A DNA stretch of 55,462 nucleotides from Deltaproteobacteria bacterium (GTDB taxonomy: Bacteria; Desulfobacterota; Desulfobacteria; Desulfobacterales; Desulfosarcinaceae), in NCBI GenBank assembly GCA_020444075.1, contig JAHLLR010000032.1, forward strand, positions 1-55,462, written 5' to 3'. Numbering within the stretch: the first letter of the stretch is position 1; each line of letters begins with the position of its first letter. Below, piece after piece: positions 31,765 to 38,182 of the stretch. The notes under the pieces are model-generated. The model saw only the letters and a program-made list of their open reading frames with translations. It was not told where the DNA came from and made no database searches. Position numbers and translations under genes: made by a program.

Positions 31765-31878
31765 CATTGTATTCTGAAAATGATCCATCCCGGTCCGCCG
31801 ATGTGCGTTGCTGACCGGACAATCGGAAGGGTAAATGTTCTGAGGCGCATCTTTCACACCATTCAAAGGATTAGCATC

Positions 31879-32700
31879 GTGAGAAACCTTAAATTGGTAA
31901 TTGTTTTAATGGTTCTCCTTATTCCGGCTGCGCTGCACGCCGCCTTCGAGGTGGAAGGCGTCCTCAAGGCGGACATCGGTTCTCCCATTCTGGATGTAAC
32001 CACCAACCCGGCCGAGGACATGGTCTTTATCCTTACCCCGGGGGCGGTGCTGATCTATTCGGCAGATGATCAAGCTGTTTTGGACAGTATTCCGGTTGAA
32101 AAACAATTCGACCATATCGCCTATCAGGACCCCGACCGGCTGGTTTTGACCGCCGTCAAACCGTCCCGCATCAGCATCATCCGTTTCAGCCGCATTTTTG
32201 ACATCGATCTGTCCGGCAGGGCGGTTAAGGGGCCCCGGGATGCGAAGGTGACCCTCGTGGTGTTTGACGACTACCAGTGACCGTACTGTGCTCGTTTAGA
32301 GCAATTTATCCAGCAGGTGCTGGAAAAATTCCCCAACGACGTCAGTTATGCGATCAAAAACTTTCCGCTTTCCAGCCACCCATTTGCCCATTCAAGCGCC
32401 ATGGCGGCCCTGGCTGCGGGCAACCAGGGAAAATTCTGGGAGTTCCACAGCCGACTGCTTGAGAATCACAATCAGATCAATGAAGAGAAAATTCTGGAAA
32501 TCGCCGGTGGGATGGGGTTGAATATGGACCGGTTCAATCAGGACCGCCAGTCCGCATCCAGCCGCCTATTGATTCAGGAAGATGTTGAAAACGGTCGAAA
32601 AATAGGCGTTCGCGGAACCCCGTCGCTGTTTTTGAACGGAAAGCGAGTCAGCAACCCGGGGAAACTTCCCGAGTTGATCATGAGGGAACTCGGTAAATGA
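31879..32700 (+). CDS. DsbA-like thioredoxin-fold selenoprotein with in-frame UGA
   Basis: A 273-residue exported protein if UGA at 32278-32280 is read as selenocysteine (U134). The first part has a signal peptide (LVIVLMVLLIPAALHAAFE) and a beta-rich domain. The thioredoxin-fold part has the active site DDYQ-U-PYC, where DsbA-like proteins carry F-x-CPYC. The same frame continues after UGA with ARLEQFIQQVLE and IKNFPLSSHPFAHSSAMAAL, and reaches the cis-proline motif GVRGTPSLFLNG. Continuity of frame, homology on both sides and the position of UGA exactly at the active-site cysteine support decoding rather than a broken gene. GTG 31879 has AAAGGA 8 nt upstream. The next gene overlaps its stop (ATGA). 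Confidence 0.82.
32281..32303 (+). promoter_or_regulatory. SECIS-like hairpin after the UGA codon
   Basis: Eight nt after the UGA a stem TGCTC (32289-32293) pairs with GAGCA (32299-32303) around the loop GTTTA. Bacterial SECIS elements are small hairpins placed within the coding sequence shortly after UGA, with a G and U in the apical loop. Distance and loop fit that pattern. The stem is short and I could not compute its energy. Confidence 0.5.
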
Positions 32701-32975
32701 AAAATAAAATATTCAAATTTTTATTTCTGGTCGTGGCGATATCGATGATATCGATGTCATGCACCCACAAACCCTATCATCCGACCAAAAGCGAGCGGGA
32801 GTGGGCCATTGATCATGAAGCCTGTGAAGTGTGGGTCAGAGAGGGTATCCGTGATGAGCCCGACACCTATGACAACTTTGACGAGATGCGGCTGATCCAC
32901 CAATGCATGAAAGACAAGGGATGGCAGTGGGAGCGGACCGATCTTTTTAATTTCAAGAAAGCACCGGCGGAGTAA
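32697..32975 (+). CDS. Small lipoprotein of unknown function
   Basis: A 92-residue protein with a signal peptide and lipobox (SMISMSC, cysteine about residue 22). The remainder is acidic and contains two further cysteines in HEACEVWVREGI and HQCMKDKGWQWE, which may form a disulfide. Its start overlaps the stop of the selenoprotein (ATGA), so the two are translated together. The cysteine pair makes it a candidate substrate or partner of the DsbA-like protein; this is inference. Confidence 0.75.
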   Translation: MKNKIFKFLFLVVAISMISMSCTHKPYHPTKSEREWAIDHEACEVWVREGIRDEPDTYDNFDEMRLIHQCMKDKGWQWERTDLFNFKKAPAE

Positions 32976-33066: not shown

Positions 33067-36000
33067 TCAACAATTCTGAATAGACGTTCCGGCGCTTCGT
33101 TTTAAAAGCCCGTCCATTACTTTGAGATAACCGGGGGCACACTGCAGGTAAAAGGAGAGTCCCTTTGAAAAGTTTATCCCCACCACGCCATCGATGAACA
33201 TCTGACTGATTTCCCGCTCTCGTTTCAAAATCGCCTGACATCCGGATAAAATTCGCTTCTCCTCGTCGGAAAGGGTTTTGGACAGGTACTTGAGTGCGGT
33301 GCGAGCCCGGGGCTGATACATCCAGAAATAGAGCAGGTCCAGCGCTCCGATGACGATGAGTTTTTCCAGGTCTCGGGTGTCGGCATTGGCGTCGGTGCGG
33401 TCTTTCCCAATGGTTTCAAGTGTTTCCCACACATTGAGTTCGGGCAGGAGAGCTTCCAGGCGACCATAGGTATCAAAAAGCTGAGACAGGGTGTCCGCAT
33501 AGTCTTGAAAGCGGGTCTGGATATTGGTGAAGCGGTCGGCCGCCCCCTCGATAACTCCGGCCACGGTATCCGAGGCTCCTTTTGAGATCACGGCGGCCCA
33601 TTTCTGCAGGTGGCCGTCAACACCTACCACCCCGAACACCCCCAGCAGGGTGCCGAGGAACATGTTGAGGGCGATGGCGATCGGAATGGAGAGGATGCTG
33701 CGGAAGAAGTTTCCGTATACGGCGCCCTTGGGGAGCCCCCGGAACAGGTTGTGGCTGGACAGGTAAATGCCGTTGGCCACGGCCATGACCGTGTAAAGGG
33801 CGGTCGGATTCGTCGCCGTCGTAATACCCATGAGCCGATCCAGCAGGAGGGTCTTGACCAGATAGTCCAGCAGCGGTACGGAAAATCCGGTAAAAAGCAG
33901 TGAGTCGGATATCCTTACCCAACTGACGTAATCGTTCCAGCGCAGCAGCGGTGAACGACTGATCCCGCCGCCACCCAGTACCGACTGGACGATGTTTCTC
34001 ACTCCCGTGATGCCGAACCAGATAAACGCCCCCAGGTAGGCCAGCACCCACCACGAGTTGGTCAGGTAGAAAGATAGGAAGGCCGGTATGAATCCCATGA
34101 GTATTTTCAGCCCATTTCTGACCGTACTGTTCAGGTAGAAGGGGGTAATCCGGGGCTTGGGCGTGATGCTCGGGCTGCGTTCCAGCCGCAGACCGTTATC
34201 CGAACGGTCGGCAATGCCTCCCAGAGTGACGATGTTCCCCTCCGGTTCCATGCGGGTAAGGTGGGTCTGGACCAGCCAGTCGACCTGGCGTATTTTACCG
34301 AGCACCTTGAGCATGGGTAGATGTTGAAGCAGGCGCTGGTGAAGTCCCTGGGAGCCTTTGGGACTTTCATAGGGAATATAGGTGACCCGCTTATAAACCG
34401 GTATCCTGAAGGGAATCACGCTGCGGATGGCCCGGGTTGGCGGTTCCGCCGGGTCGCCGATCGAACAGGGAATCTCTCCCGGAGCCACATGCTGGCGGTG
34501 CTTGCACAGCCGGCGGGCGCTGGGGGGCAGTGTATCCAGAATGGCCAGCCCCATGCCGTACATGCGTGAGGAGTGGCCGGTGGAGTCGCTGCCGATTCTC
34601 GGCTTGAGATGCATGGAGGTATACATGGCCGTGAAGGCCGAGATATCGTGAAGGATGATGCCCAGCTTTTCGATTCGTTCCGTCTTGCCGGGGAAGGGTT
34701 TGGCGGTGGCCAGCCGTCCGATGATTCGCCGGATGACCCGCTTCAGATTGATGGCGTTGCCCTCGTTGAGCGCCAGTTGCAGTTCGCTGATCTCCTCGAT
34801 GTAGCAGGTCTTTCCGGTCGTATAATCCTTGAGATTAAAGATCTCCAGCCGGCTGATGAGGCCTTCACAGTCGTAGAGGATTTCCACCACATCCTCGGGA
34901 AGCAGATCCGTCAGGTTCAAGGTGACCCGATAACCGGTGCGCATGCCTGTAACCCGGTCCAGCATCTGCCGGGGGGTAAGGTGGAGCAGTTCCGGGGTGT
35001 CCGGGTCGTCGTGTACCTGGTTGGGATCGGGGATGTCGGGATGGGCCGCCGGTCGCAGGAACTGACGCACAATGGTTTCCGAATCCAGGTCGTTCATTCG
35101 TTCCACCAGTGATATCATCTCCGCTTGGCGAGCTTCATCGGCGCTTTCATAGGCCATCCGCAGTTCATCCACCTTGCGTTTCATCAGGGGAAGCAGTTGG
35201 TGATGGATGTATTTGGCCAGGTGAAGAATGGACGGCTGGCCGGGCCGAACGAATACAAGAAACCTATCGGCGTCCAGCAGGGGCATGTCCAGCCCCATGG
35301 AGGCGTTGATGGCAGGACGGTGTACCCGGTTGAAGGCGTCAAGAACTTTCAGCACATATCGCTGCCGGTAGCGGGTGACCTCGCGACCCTGGTCCATTAA
35401 TTCCCTGACCGGTTCTTCGGCCAGGAAACAGAGGAACGATTGGGCATCGGAAAAGCCCCGGGGGACCCAGATCAGCTGGATATACTTGTCCCGGAAGCGG
35501 GCTGAGAATTCGATGCCGATGCGGATTTCTACCCCCATGATCTGGGCGGCTTCGATCAGTTCGGCGGCGGATGGAGGATCGATGAAGTTGTAGTAGATTA
35601 CCCGCAGTCTCCGAATGCCCTTGATCCAGGCATCCATGATCAGGTGGGAGGCGGATTTGCGACCCTTGGTGTTGATATCGTGCACATGATCGTCGAAGGA
35701 GAGCTGATTCCAGGCTTCAGGCATCTCCAGCAAGTGGTATCGCCGCAGCATTTTTCTGACGATGCTGGGCTTCCCGCTGGCTACGCGCCGGAAATCATGG
35801 GCCAGCTTGAGCTGTTCGATTTCGCTGCCATGGGCCCGTACCAGATCTTTCATGATCGAAAGAAGCACCCGGGCGGCGTTTTTAGGCATGGTGCCGGCCG
35901 AGGCATGCAGTACCTCGTCACGCAGGGAGCGAAGGGCGTTGAGACGGTCCTCCAGGTCCCCGGCCTCCAGCGACTCGAGGAGGTGGATGACGGCGTAGGC

Positions 36001-36159
36001 GATGCGAAGCCCCCGGGTCTCGGCCAGTTCTTTGATGCCGTGGGGATGAAACCAGGGAAACAGGCCTTTCTTGCCAATGATGTCAGGGGTGGATCTGCTC
36101 AGCACGCCATTGACGATTTTCAGAAGGTCACGGTCGCGCTTGTCGAAGAATAGGCTCAA
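33067..36159 (-). CDS. Large membrane protein of unknown function with PHP-like region
   Basis: A 1030-residue protein. Residues about 155-235 resemble a PHP-type phosphoesterase/hydrolase fragment (DDHVHDINTKGRKS, PPSAAELIEAAQIMGVEIR, IGIEFSA), although few metal-binding histidines are recognisable. Residues 240-680 are soluble and unassigned. Hydrophobic segments begin near 686 (GFIPAFLSFYL, WVLAYLGAFIWFGITGV) and continue to about 860 (SILSIPIAIALNMFLGTLLG). A soluble C-terminal domain follows. I recognise no overall family. It is a single long frame and convergent with the small lipoprotein. Confidence 0.75.
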   Translation of the reverse strand: MSLFFDKRDRDLLKIVNGVLSRSTPDIIGKKGLFPWFHPHGIKELAETRGLRIAYAVIHLLESLEAGDLEDRLNALRSLRDEVLHASAGTMPKNAARVLLSIMKDLVRAHGSEIEQLKLAHDFRRVASGKPSIVRKMLRRYHLLEMPEAWNQLSFDDHVHDINTKGRKSASHLIMDAWIKGIRRLRVIYYNFIDPPSAAELIEAAQIMGVEIRIGIEFSARFRDKYIQLIWVPRGFSDAQSFLCFLAEEPVRELMDQGREVTRYRQRYVLKVLDAFNRVHRPAINASMGLDMPLLDADRFLVFVRPGQPSILHLAKYIHHQLLPLMKRKVDELRMAYESADEARQAEMISLVERMNDLDSETIVRQFLRPAAHPDIPDPNQVHDDPDTPELLHLTPRQMLDRVTGMRTGYRVTLNLTDLLPEDVVEILYDCEGLISRLEIFNLKDYTTGKTCYIEEISELQLALNEGNAINLKRVIRRIIGRLATAKPFPGKTERIEKLGIILHDISAFTAMYTSMHLKPRIGSDSTGHSSRMYGMGLAILDTLPPSARRLCKHRQHVAPGEIPCSIGDPAEPPTRAIRSVIPFRIPVYKRVTYIPYESPKGSQGLHQRLLQHLPMLKVLGKIRQVDWLVQTHLTRMEPEGNIVTLGGIADRSDNGLRLERSPSITPKPRITPFYLNSTVRNGLKILMGFIPAFLSFYLTNSWWVLAYLGAFIWFGITGVRNIVQSVLGGGGISRSPLLRWNDYVSWVRISDSLLFTGFSVPLLDYLVKTLLLDRLMGITTATNPTALYTVMAVANGIYLSSHNLFRGLPKGAVYGNFFRSILSIPIAIALNMFLGTLLGVFGVVGVDGHLQKWAAVISKGASDTVAGVIEGAADRFTNIQTRFQDYADTLSQLFDTYGRLEALLPELNVWETLETIGKDRTDANADTRDLEKLIVIGALDLLYFWMYQPRARTALKYLSKTLSDEEKRILSGCQAILKREREISQMFIDGVVGINFSKGLSFYLQCAPGYLKVMDGLLKRSAGTSIQNC

Positions 36160-38105: not shown

Positions 38106-38182
38106 TGGCAGGCCAGGAGGGATTCGAACCCCCAACACCCGGATTTGGAGTCCGGTGCTCTACCAATTCGAGCTACTGGCCT
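38106..38182 (-). tRNA. tRNA-Trp (anticodon CCA)
   Basis: Read on the minus strand, the acceptor stem AGGCCAG pairs with CTGGCCT, followed by the discriminator G and an encoded CCA. The D arm (AGCTCGAATTGGTAGAGC), anticodon stem-loop CCGGACTCCAAATCCGG with anticodon CCA, and T arm GGGGGTTCGAATCCCTC are all canonical. It is a single gene with no neighbouring tRNA or integrase. Confidence 0.96.

Follow-up and report, generated by a model that had tools for sequence, protein, structure and literature searches.

A probable exported DsbA-family selenoprotein with a propeller-like N-terminal domain in a member of the Desulfosarcinaceae

The window analysed here is a stretch of 55,462 nucleotides that makes up contig C37 (JAHLLR010000032.1) of a 5.59 Mb draft assembly in 173 contigs (GCA_020444075.1) from a deltaproteobacterium of the family Desulfosarcinaceae. 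It carries a gene whose frame of 273 residues is interrupted once, by a UGA codon at residue 134 (context DDYQ-U-PYCARLEQ; Table 1), and this single frame, with DDYQ before the codon and PYC after it, agrees with what had been described in an initial interpretation of the letters (the sequence-only reading). Translation with table 11 yields two ORFs instead, one ending at 32280 and the other beginning at a GTG at 32317, which is the split that had been anticipated of annotation pipelines. The only redox residues of the 273-residue product are U134 and C137. Its N-terminus is hydrophobic, and the putative signal peptide contains a helix at residues 2-18 in an AlphaFold2 model. Elsewhere in the window, a tRNA-Trp (CCA) lies at 38106-38182 and a 1030-residue ORF with no Pfam match at E 0.001 at 33067-36159, both on the reverse strand, and an Rfam scan of the window returned nothing besides a tRNA.

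Table 1. Features of the candidate selenoprotein gene and its surroundings, in window positions.
Feature	Position	Strand	Details
Shine-Dalgarno-like AAAGGA (putative)	31865-31870	+	Found by eye, upstream of the GTG start
Whole gene	31879-32700	+	GTG start, 273 residues, stop TGA at 32698-32700; full-length homologues known
Putative signal peptide, residues 1-21, ending ALHA	31879-31941	+	Cleavage site placed by eye; lipobox Cys absent
N-terminal beta domain, residues 39-102, seven predicted strands, resembling two beta-propeller blades	31993-32184	+	AlphaFold2, profile match, Foldseek
DsbA/Thioredoxin_4 domain, residues 116-261	32224-32661	+	Pfam; structures 3gyk, BdbD, alpha-DsbA2, ScsC
UGA codon, probably read as Sec	32278-32280	+	Residue 134 of U-P-Y-C137
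Proximal hairpin TGCTC-GTTTA-GAGCA	32289-32303	+	nt 9-23 past UGA; region scores higher in UGA than in Cys genes
Distal hairpin TCCAGC-AGGT-GCTGGA, SECIS candidate	32309-32324	+	nt 29-44 past UGA, loop 32315-32318; pairing statistics, RNAalifold
cis-Proline motif G246-T247-P248	32614-32622	+	Sequence; GTP in 30 of 36 aligned family rows
Small downstream lipoprotein	32697-32975	+	ATG overlaps the selenoprotein stop (ATGA); carries two Cys in addition to that of the lipobox

The product was assigned to the DsbA family, as had been proposed. With C in place of U, the joined product matched Thioredoxin_4 at 80.2 bits (Pfam cut-off 23.2) and DSBA at 62.6 bits (cut-off 25.6), and it displays the thioredoxin fold with a helical insert and the cis-proline by which the family (PF01323/PF13462) is recognized, the cis-proline motif lying toward the end of the protein, where the sequence-only reading had placed it. 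The product is almost certainly a DsbA-type redox enzyme. The AlphaFold2 model (C for U) had a pLDDT of 93.7 and a pTM of 0.80, and in a Foldseek search with the whole model the best among the 50 matches listed were 3gyk, BdbD, alpha-DsbA2, and ScsC, the matches covering the DsbA part only, with TM-scores by query length of at most 0.55. The N-terminal domain of this sequence matched no Pfam family, and weak propeller matches were obtained in some of 40 family members; its profile matched the propeller proteins 1l0q and 2ymu (E 1e-16), mostly over repeated weak stretches. When this part was searched alone, Foldseek gave nothing at E 0.001 or better, the best match having an E of 1.2e-3 and the top rows comprising WD40-type propellers (judged by title) together with the designed Ika4 and Pizza2-SR. 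In the predicted model, the N-terminal part thus looks like two blades of a beta-propeller.

The active site was CPYC or UPYC in 28 of 36 aligned family rows, and the cis-proline motif was GTP, the isomerase type, in 30 of these rows as well as in the protein itself, the others having STP (3), GVP (2), or SVP (1). According to extracts of a comparative study, GTcP is common to all five disulfide isomerases compared, and the N-terminal regions of DsbC, ScsC, and alpha-DsbA2 give rise to oligomers that are required for isomerase activity (PMC6450060). The protein of the window has an extra N-terminal domain, which is a candidate oligomerization region. Two-blade pieces such as Pizza2 self-assemble into a closed ring. 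By analogy, the two-blade piece would probably join those of other subunits to close a propeller, and the closed propeller would bring several DsbA domains to face a common space, as with the N-terminal extensions of DsbC, ScsC, and alpha-DsbA2. The combination of a GTP cis-proline with a two-blade N-terminal part would point to an isomerase or reductase rather than to monomeric oxidation; on these analogies, oligomer formation is slightly favoured and an activity as disulfide isomerase or reductase is put at even chances. The strongest competitor, which is a tentative but serious one, is a Sec enzyme that works in the periplasm as a monomer, either oxidant or reductant, and whose N-terminal domain binds a partner instead of forming an oligomer. 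Propeller-like pieces often bind partner proteins, and BdbD, which is among the best structural relatives, is a monomer, but an oligomeric isomerase agrees better with the prevalence of GTP among the family rows and with the length of two blades.

The identity of residue 134 was addressed through the homologues, as the sequence-only reading had advised. A match to the joined product was found in 62 of 97 related genomes. The aligned site could be classified in 49 homologous genes, of which 21 had TGA and 28 had TGC or TGT, with no other residue; these genes are best matches, remote paralogues low in the list falling outside the count, and those left out were a fragment starting past the site (L021), a remote Cys-containing paralogue from the same genome (L002), the second frames of L014 and L047, and weaker match rows. 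A class-wide profile search of 291 genomes gave matches in 140, and the 56 full-length class loci among those fetched, which partly repeat the 49-gene set, comprised 34 with TGA, 14 with TGC, and 8 with TGT. A further 25 full-length loci from named genomes all have Cys by construction, since the search pattern demanded Cys at the site. The in-frame UGA therefore stands where homologues have Cys, and homologues with a different residue, which had been named as grounds for abandoning the selenoprotein proposal, were absent from both sets (UGA or Cys in 49/49 genes and 56/56 loci). Reading of the UGA as Trp was rejected, Trp being absent from the site in the 49 genes. Parsimony on a tree with 109 rows, 45 of them Sec and 64 Cys, requires at least 15 changes of label, seven of which are forced by starred (well-supported) branches; this is a quick tree in which long branches are joined, and Sec was entered as X while Cys rows keep C, so that the label itself occupies 1 of the 286 columns.

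The UGA and Cys forms also differ in the RNA downstream of the codon. All six pairs of the distal hairpin were present in 44 of 48 distinct UGA genes, the remaining four having five, versus 1 of 44 Cys genes (Fisher p 2e-20, a value that ignores relatedness). Across the six positions, standard pairing was seen in 98.4% of cells for the first 21 UGA genes, versus 26-45% with the partners slid and 52.4% for the same pairs in 28 Cys genes; further distinct genes had all six pairs in 25 of 27 cases for the UGA form and in 0 of 16 for the Cys form. Covariation was observed, with C-G, G-C, and A-U alternating at one distal pair and G-C and U-A at another, and RNAalifold recovered the identical six pairs unaided. 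Folding z-scores against synonymous shuffles averaged -1.76 for UGA genes and -0.16 for Cys genes (p 9e-6), and the mean score of the distal hairpin region was 16.5 versus 8.3 (p 3e-14) and that of the nearer region (nt 7-28) 13.0 versus 8.7 (p 7e-10; 48 versus 44 genes), both p values again ignoring relatedness. Among the first 21 UGA genes, 17 have AGGU as the distal loop and 4 have AGUU; the letters AGGT by themselves are likewise present in 13 of the 28 Cys genes because they encode a conserved Gln-Val, so that it is the stem, and not the loop, which separates the two groups. A stem-loop just past the UGA with a small apical loop containing G (here AGGU or AGUU) agrees with the common features of bacterial SECIS elements named in an extract of PMC1088965. 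The distal loop lies at nt 35-38 past the UGA, and that of the selD hairpin in the same genome is nearer, at about nt 20-24. The published bacterial SECIS model places the apical loop about 16-37 nt past the UGA, a range at whose outer edge the distal loop sits; the nearer hairpin (nt 9-23) may share the SECIS task with the distal one. One Cys gene, L161, groups on short branches with the Sec genes L172 and L174 and keeps five of the six hairpin pairs, and it looks like a recent loss of Sec that has left something like a fossil SECIS, the change presumably having run from Sec to Cys.

The machinery for selenocysteine insertion, the lack of which had been named as a further objection, was found in full in this genome, which contains selA, two selB, a selD that itself includes one in-frame TGA, and tRNA-Sec. 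A contig end truncates the usual tRNA-Sec: its last 23 nt lie at C40:1-23 (L237:1-23), are identical to the copy in the related genome G008, and are followed by the same GCCATTTTTT as in that copy, which indicates that the gene is present but split by the assembly. The tRNA-Sec search matched all 14 control genomes at E 0.001 (5 above the cut-off), so only matches above the cut-off were used; relatives mostly have a 94-nt tRNA-Sec of 70-77 bits, and the tRNA of this genome that lies above the Rfam cut-off (50.6 bits) is not the usual tRNA-Sec. Matches to selA exceeded the cut-off in 43 of the 45 UGA-form genomes and in all 35 Cys-form genomes (78/80), the two UGA-form genomes in which it was not found being 86% and 80% complete (G006 and G272, respectively). 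As selA occurs in nearly all carriers of either form, the machinery fails to discriminate UGA from Cys carriers here. In the proposed course of events, SelB would bind the hairpin on the ribosome and bring Sec-tRNA-Sec to the UGA, and after export and removal of the signal peptide U134 and C137 would form a reversible selenenylsulfide. Judged from the sequence comparisons, Sec at residue 134 is held to be very highly probable.

This genome appears to encode a second UGA-reading set. On contig C148, a tRNA (L198:2179-2270) shows, by eye, a UCA anticodon, A1:U72, U73, and a CCA that is part of the gene, and is directly followed by a second SelB (set L198:2179-4229) scoring above the selB cut-off, the usual selB being on C27; the second SelB shares 31% identity with the first and 82% with that of G009. 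A review of non-canonical tRNAs describes, in the extract considered, a selC* tRNA-Cys of Desulfobacterales that has A1:U72 and UCA and lies upstream of selB* and cysS* (PMC7609411), and the C148 tRNA and second SelB would fit this set by their base identities and gene order. In contrast to the described selC*/SelB*/CysRS* set, no CysRS was found adjoining the tRNA-selB pair in this genome, which has two CysRS above the cut-off, one ordinary and one within an 813-residue frame. That frame (L241:436-2877, on C74) appears by eye to combine a cysteine synthase with a CysRS (370 bits, TIGR00435). In G023, a CysRS (456 bits, TIGR00435, 419 aa) lies downstream of the pair, and a protein 57% identical to it occurs within the region fetched from G255. 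The second SelB type (above 415 bits, versus at most 382 for ordinary SelB) was searched in 80 family-carrying genomes, 45 of the UGA form and 35 of the Cys form according to the fetched loci, and clear matches were obtained in G000, G009, G255, G023, G039, G254, and G042, whereas G027 gave a fragment of 70% identity. Pairs resembling the tRNA-selB pair of C148 occur in G009, G023, G039, G042, G254, and G255. It was present in 4 of the 45 UGA-form genomes and not found in 41, including the single-contig genomes G001, G008, G082, G094, G248, and G284.

These findings raise the alternative that the UGA is read as Cys, wholly or partly, by the selC*-like tRNA(UCA) and its own SelB-like factor. 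Such a reading draws on the C148 pair and its described counterpart in the order, on the CysRS of G023 and its relative in G255, and on Cys being the alternative residue at the site, but the same UGA and hairpin are kept in the 41 UGA-form genomes without a match to the second SelB, so that in most carriers they would function independently of that set, and the set in this genome lacks an adjoining CysRS, its synthetases being the ordinary one and that in the 813-residue frame. Sec is thus the better reading and Cys an improbable one, although the second set may compete for the UGA in this genome. A composite scheme, in which two rival systems read the UGA to give a Sec or a Cys isomerase according to selenium supply, within an oligomer closed by the shared propeller, is similarly improbable.

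The Sec reading was further compared with readings in which the UGA is a stop or an error. Against five close UGA relatives (L007-L010 and L041), dN/dS was about 0.11-0.20 both before and after the UGA, many of the synonymous distances in this comparison being near saturation; with a sixth relative, L013, the first part was saturated synonymously and the second gave about 0.12. These codon substitutions indicate purifying selection before and after the UGA alike. Synonymous change was 0.21 per site in the hairpin codons versus 0.62-0.67 elsewhere (eight close UGA genes), and low values were also seen at other codons near the UGA site. A true stop, leaving either a pseudogene or two genes, the second of which would begin at GTG 32317, would account for the two ORFs of table 11, but the alignment of homologues 270-290 residues long continues through the site, the UGA is kept while synonymous sites vary, and a thioredoxin fold made from the second ORF would lack its first strand as well as the two active-site residues; this reading was rejected as highly improbable on the conservation and the purifying selection on both sides. 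That TGC or TGT was miscalled as TGA in sequencing or assembly would require a single substitution in a draft of 173 contigs, but the chance is negligible given that TGA recurs at the same site with the hairpin in 48 distinct genes from many independent assemblies, the close relatives L007-L010 and L041 among them. An exported DsbA-family Sec enzyme with a UPYC site is, with high confidence, the best explanation as a whole.

The sequence-only reading had regarded a DsbA-type selenoprotein as notable; the selenoprotein part of this claim is supported, and its notability was overstated, since DsbA-like UxxC selenoproteins have been known since 2005. According to extracts of the respective papers, nine were reported in the Sargasso Sea set in 2005 (PMC1088965), four in 2006, including those of the deltaproteobacteria Anaeromyxobacter and Desulfovibrio desulfuricans (PMC1794560), and 63 and 18 in the Global Ocean Sampling set (PMC2398784), and they are listed in reviews of 2022 and 2026 (PMC9312934, PMC13188914). 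The deep-Sep study assigned 15 to 38 selenoproteins to each of three Desulfosarcina genomes, DsbA being unnamed in the portion of its main text considered (PMC12013277). The protein shares with DsbA-like form 1 (PF01323) the Pfam DSBA fold, a Sec that replaces the first CxxC cysteine, and a hairpin past the UGA, whereas a two-blade N-terminal domain goes unmentioned in the extracts of published descriptions, with which it was compared by description only. Like the Rcas_1661 family (seleno)lipoprotein (NF041057, a DsbG-like selenoprotein), it has an exported UxxC thioredoxin fold (aligned residues 112-257), but it scored 49.7 bits against a cut-off of 190 and is by eye no lipoprotein, and membership of that family was rejected on the score. 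The trimeric isomerases ScsC and Wolbachia alpha-DsbA2 resemble it in the DsbA catalytic domain, the N-terminal extension, and the GTP cis-proline motif, and differ, as far as the extracts describe them, in having other N-terminal folds (helical in LpDsbA2) and Cys in place of two propeller blades and Sec. No selenocysteine DsbA with a beta-propeller was found described in the literature search; the kind of protein is already known, and its domain make-up, a Sec DsbA with a two-blade propeller, was not found described in the literature searched. The family is a periplasmic Dsb family alternating between Sec and Cys and common in one bacterial class, whose genes ordinary annotation would halve. 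Close Sec/Cys pairs (L161 versus L172 and L174) permit measurement of what selenium adds to a disulfide enzyme, and the selC*-like tRNA and second SelB in the same genome make the amino acid inserted at the UGA directly testable.

The small lipoprotein encoded immediately downstream matched no Pfam family, and no such gene adjoins L041, the second copy in G012. It lies beside the selenoprotein gene in 12 loci of the genus, and in all 12 the two Cys beyond the lipobox Cys are kept; the lipoprotein could be a substrate or partner of the selenoprotein.
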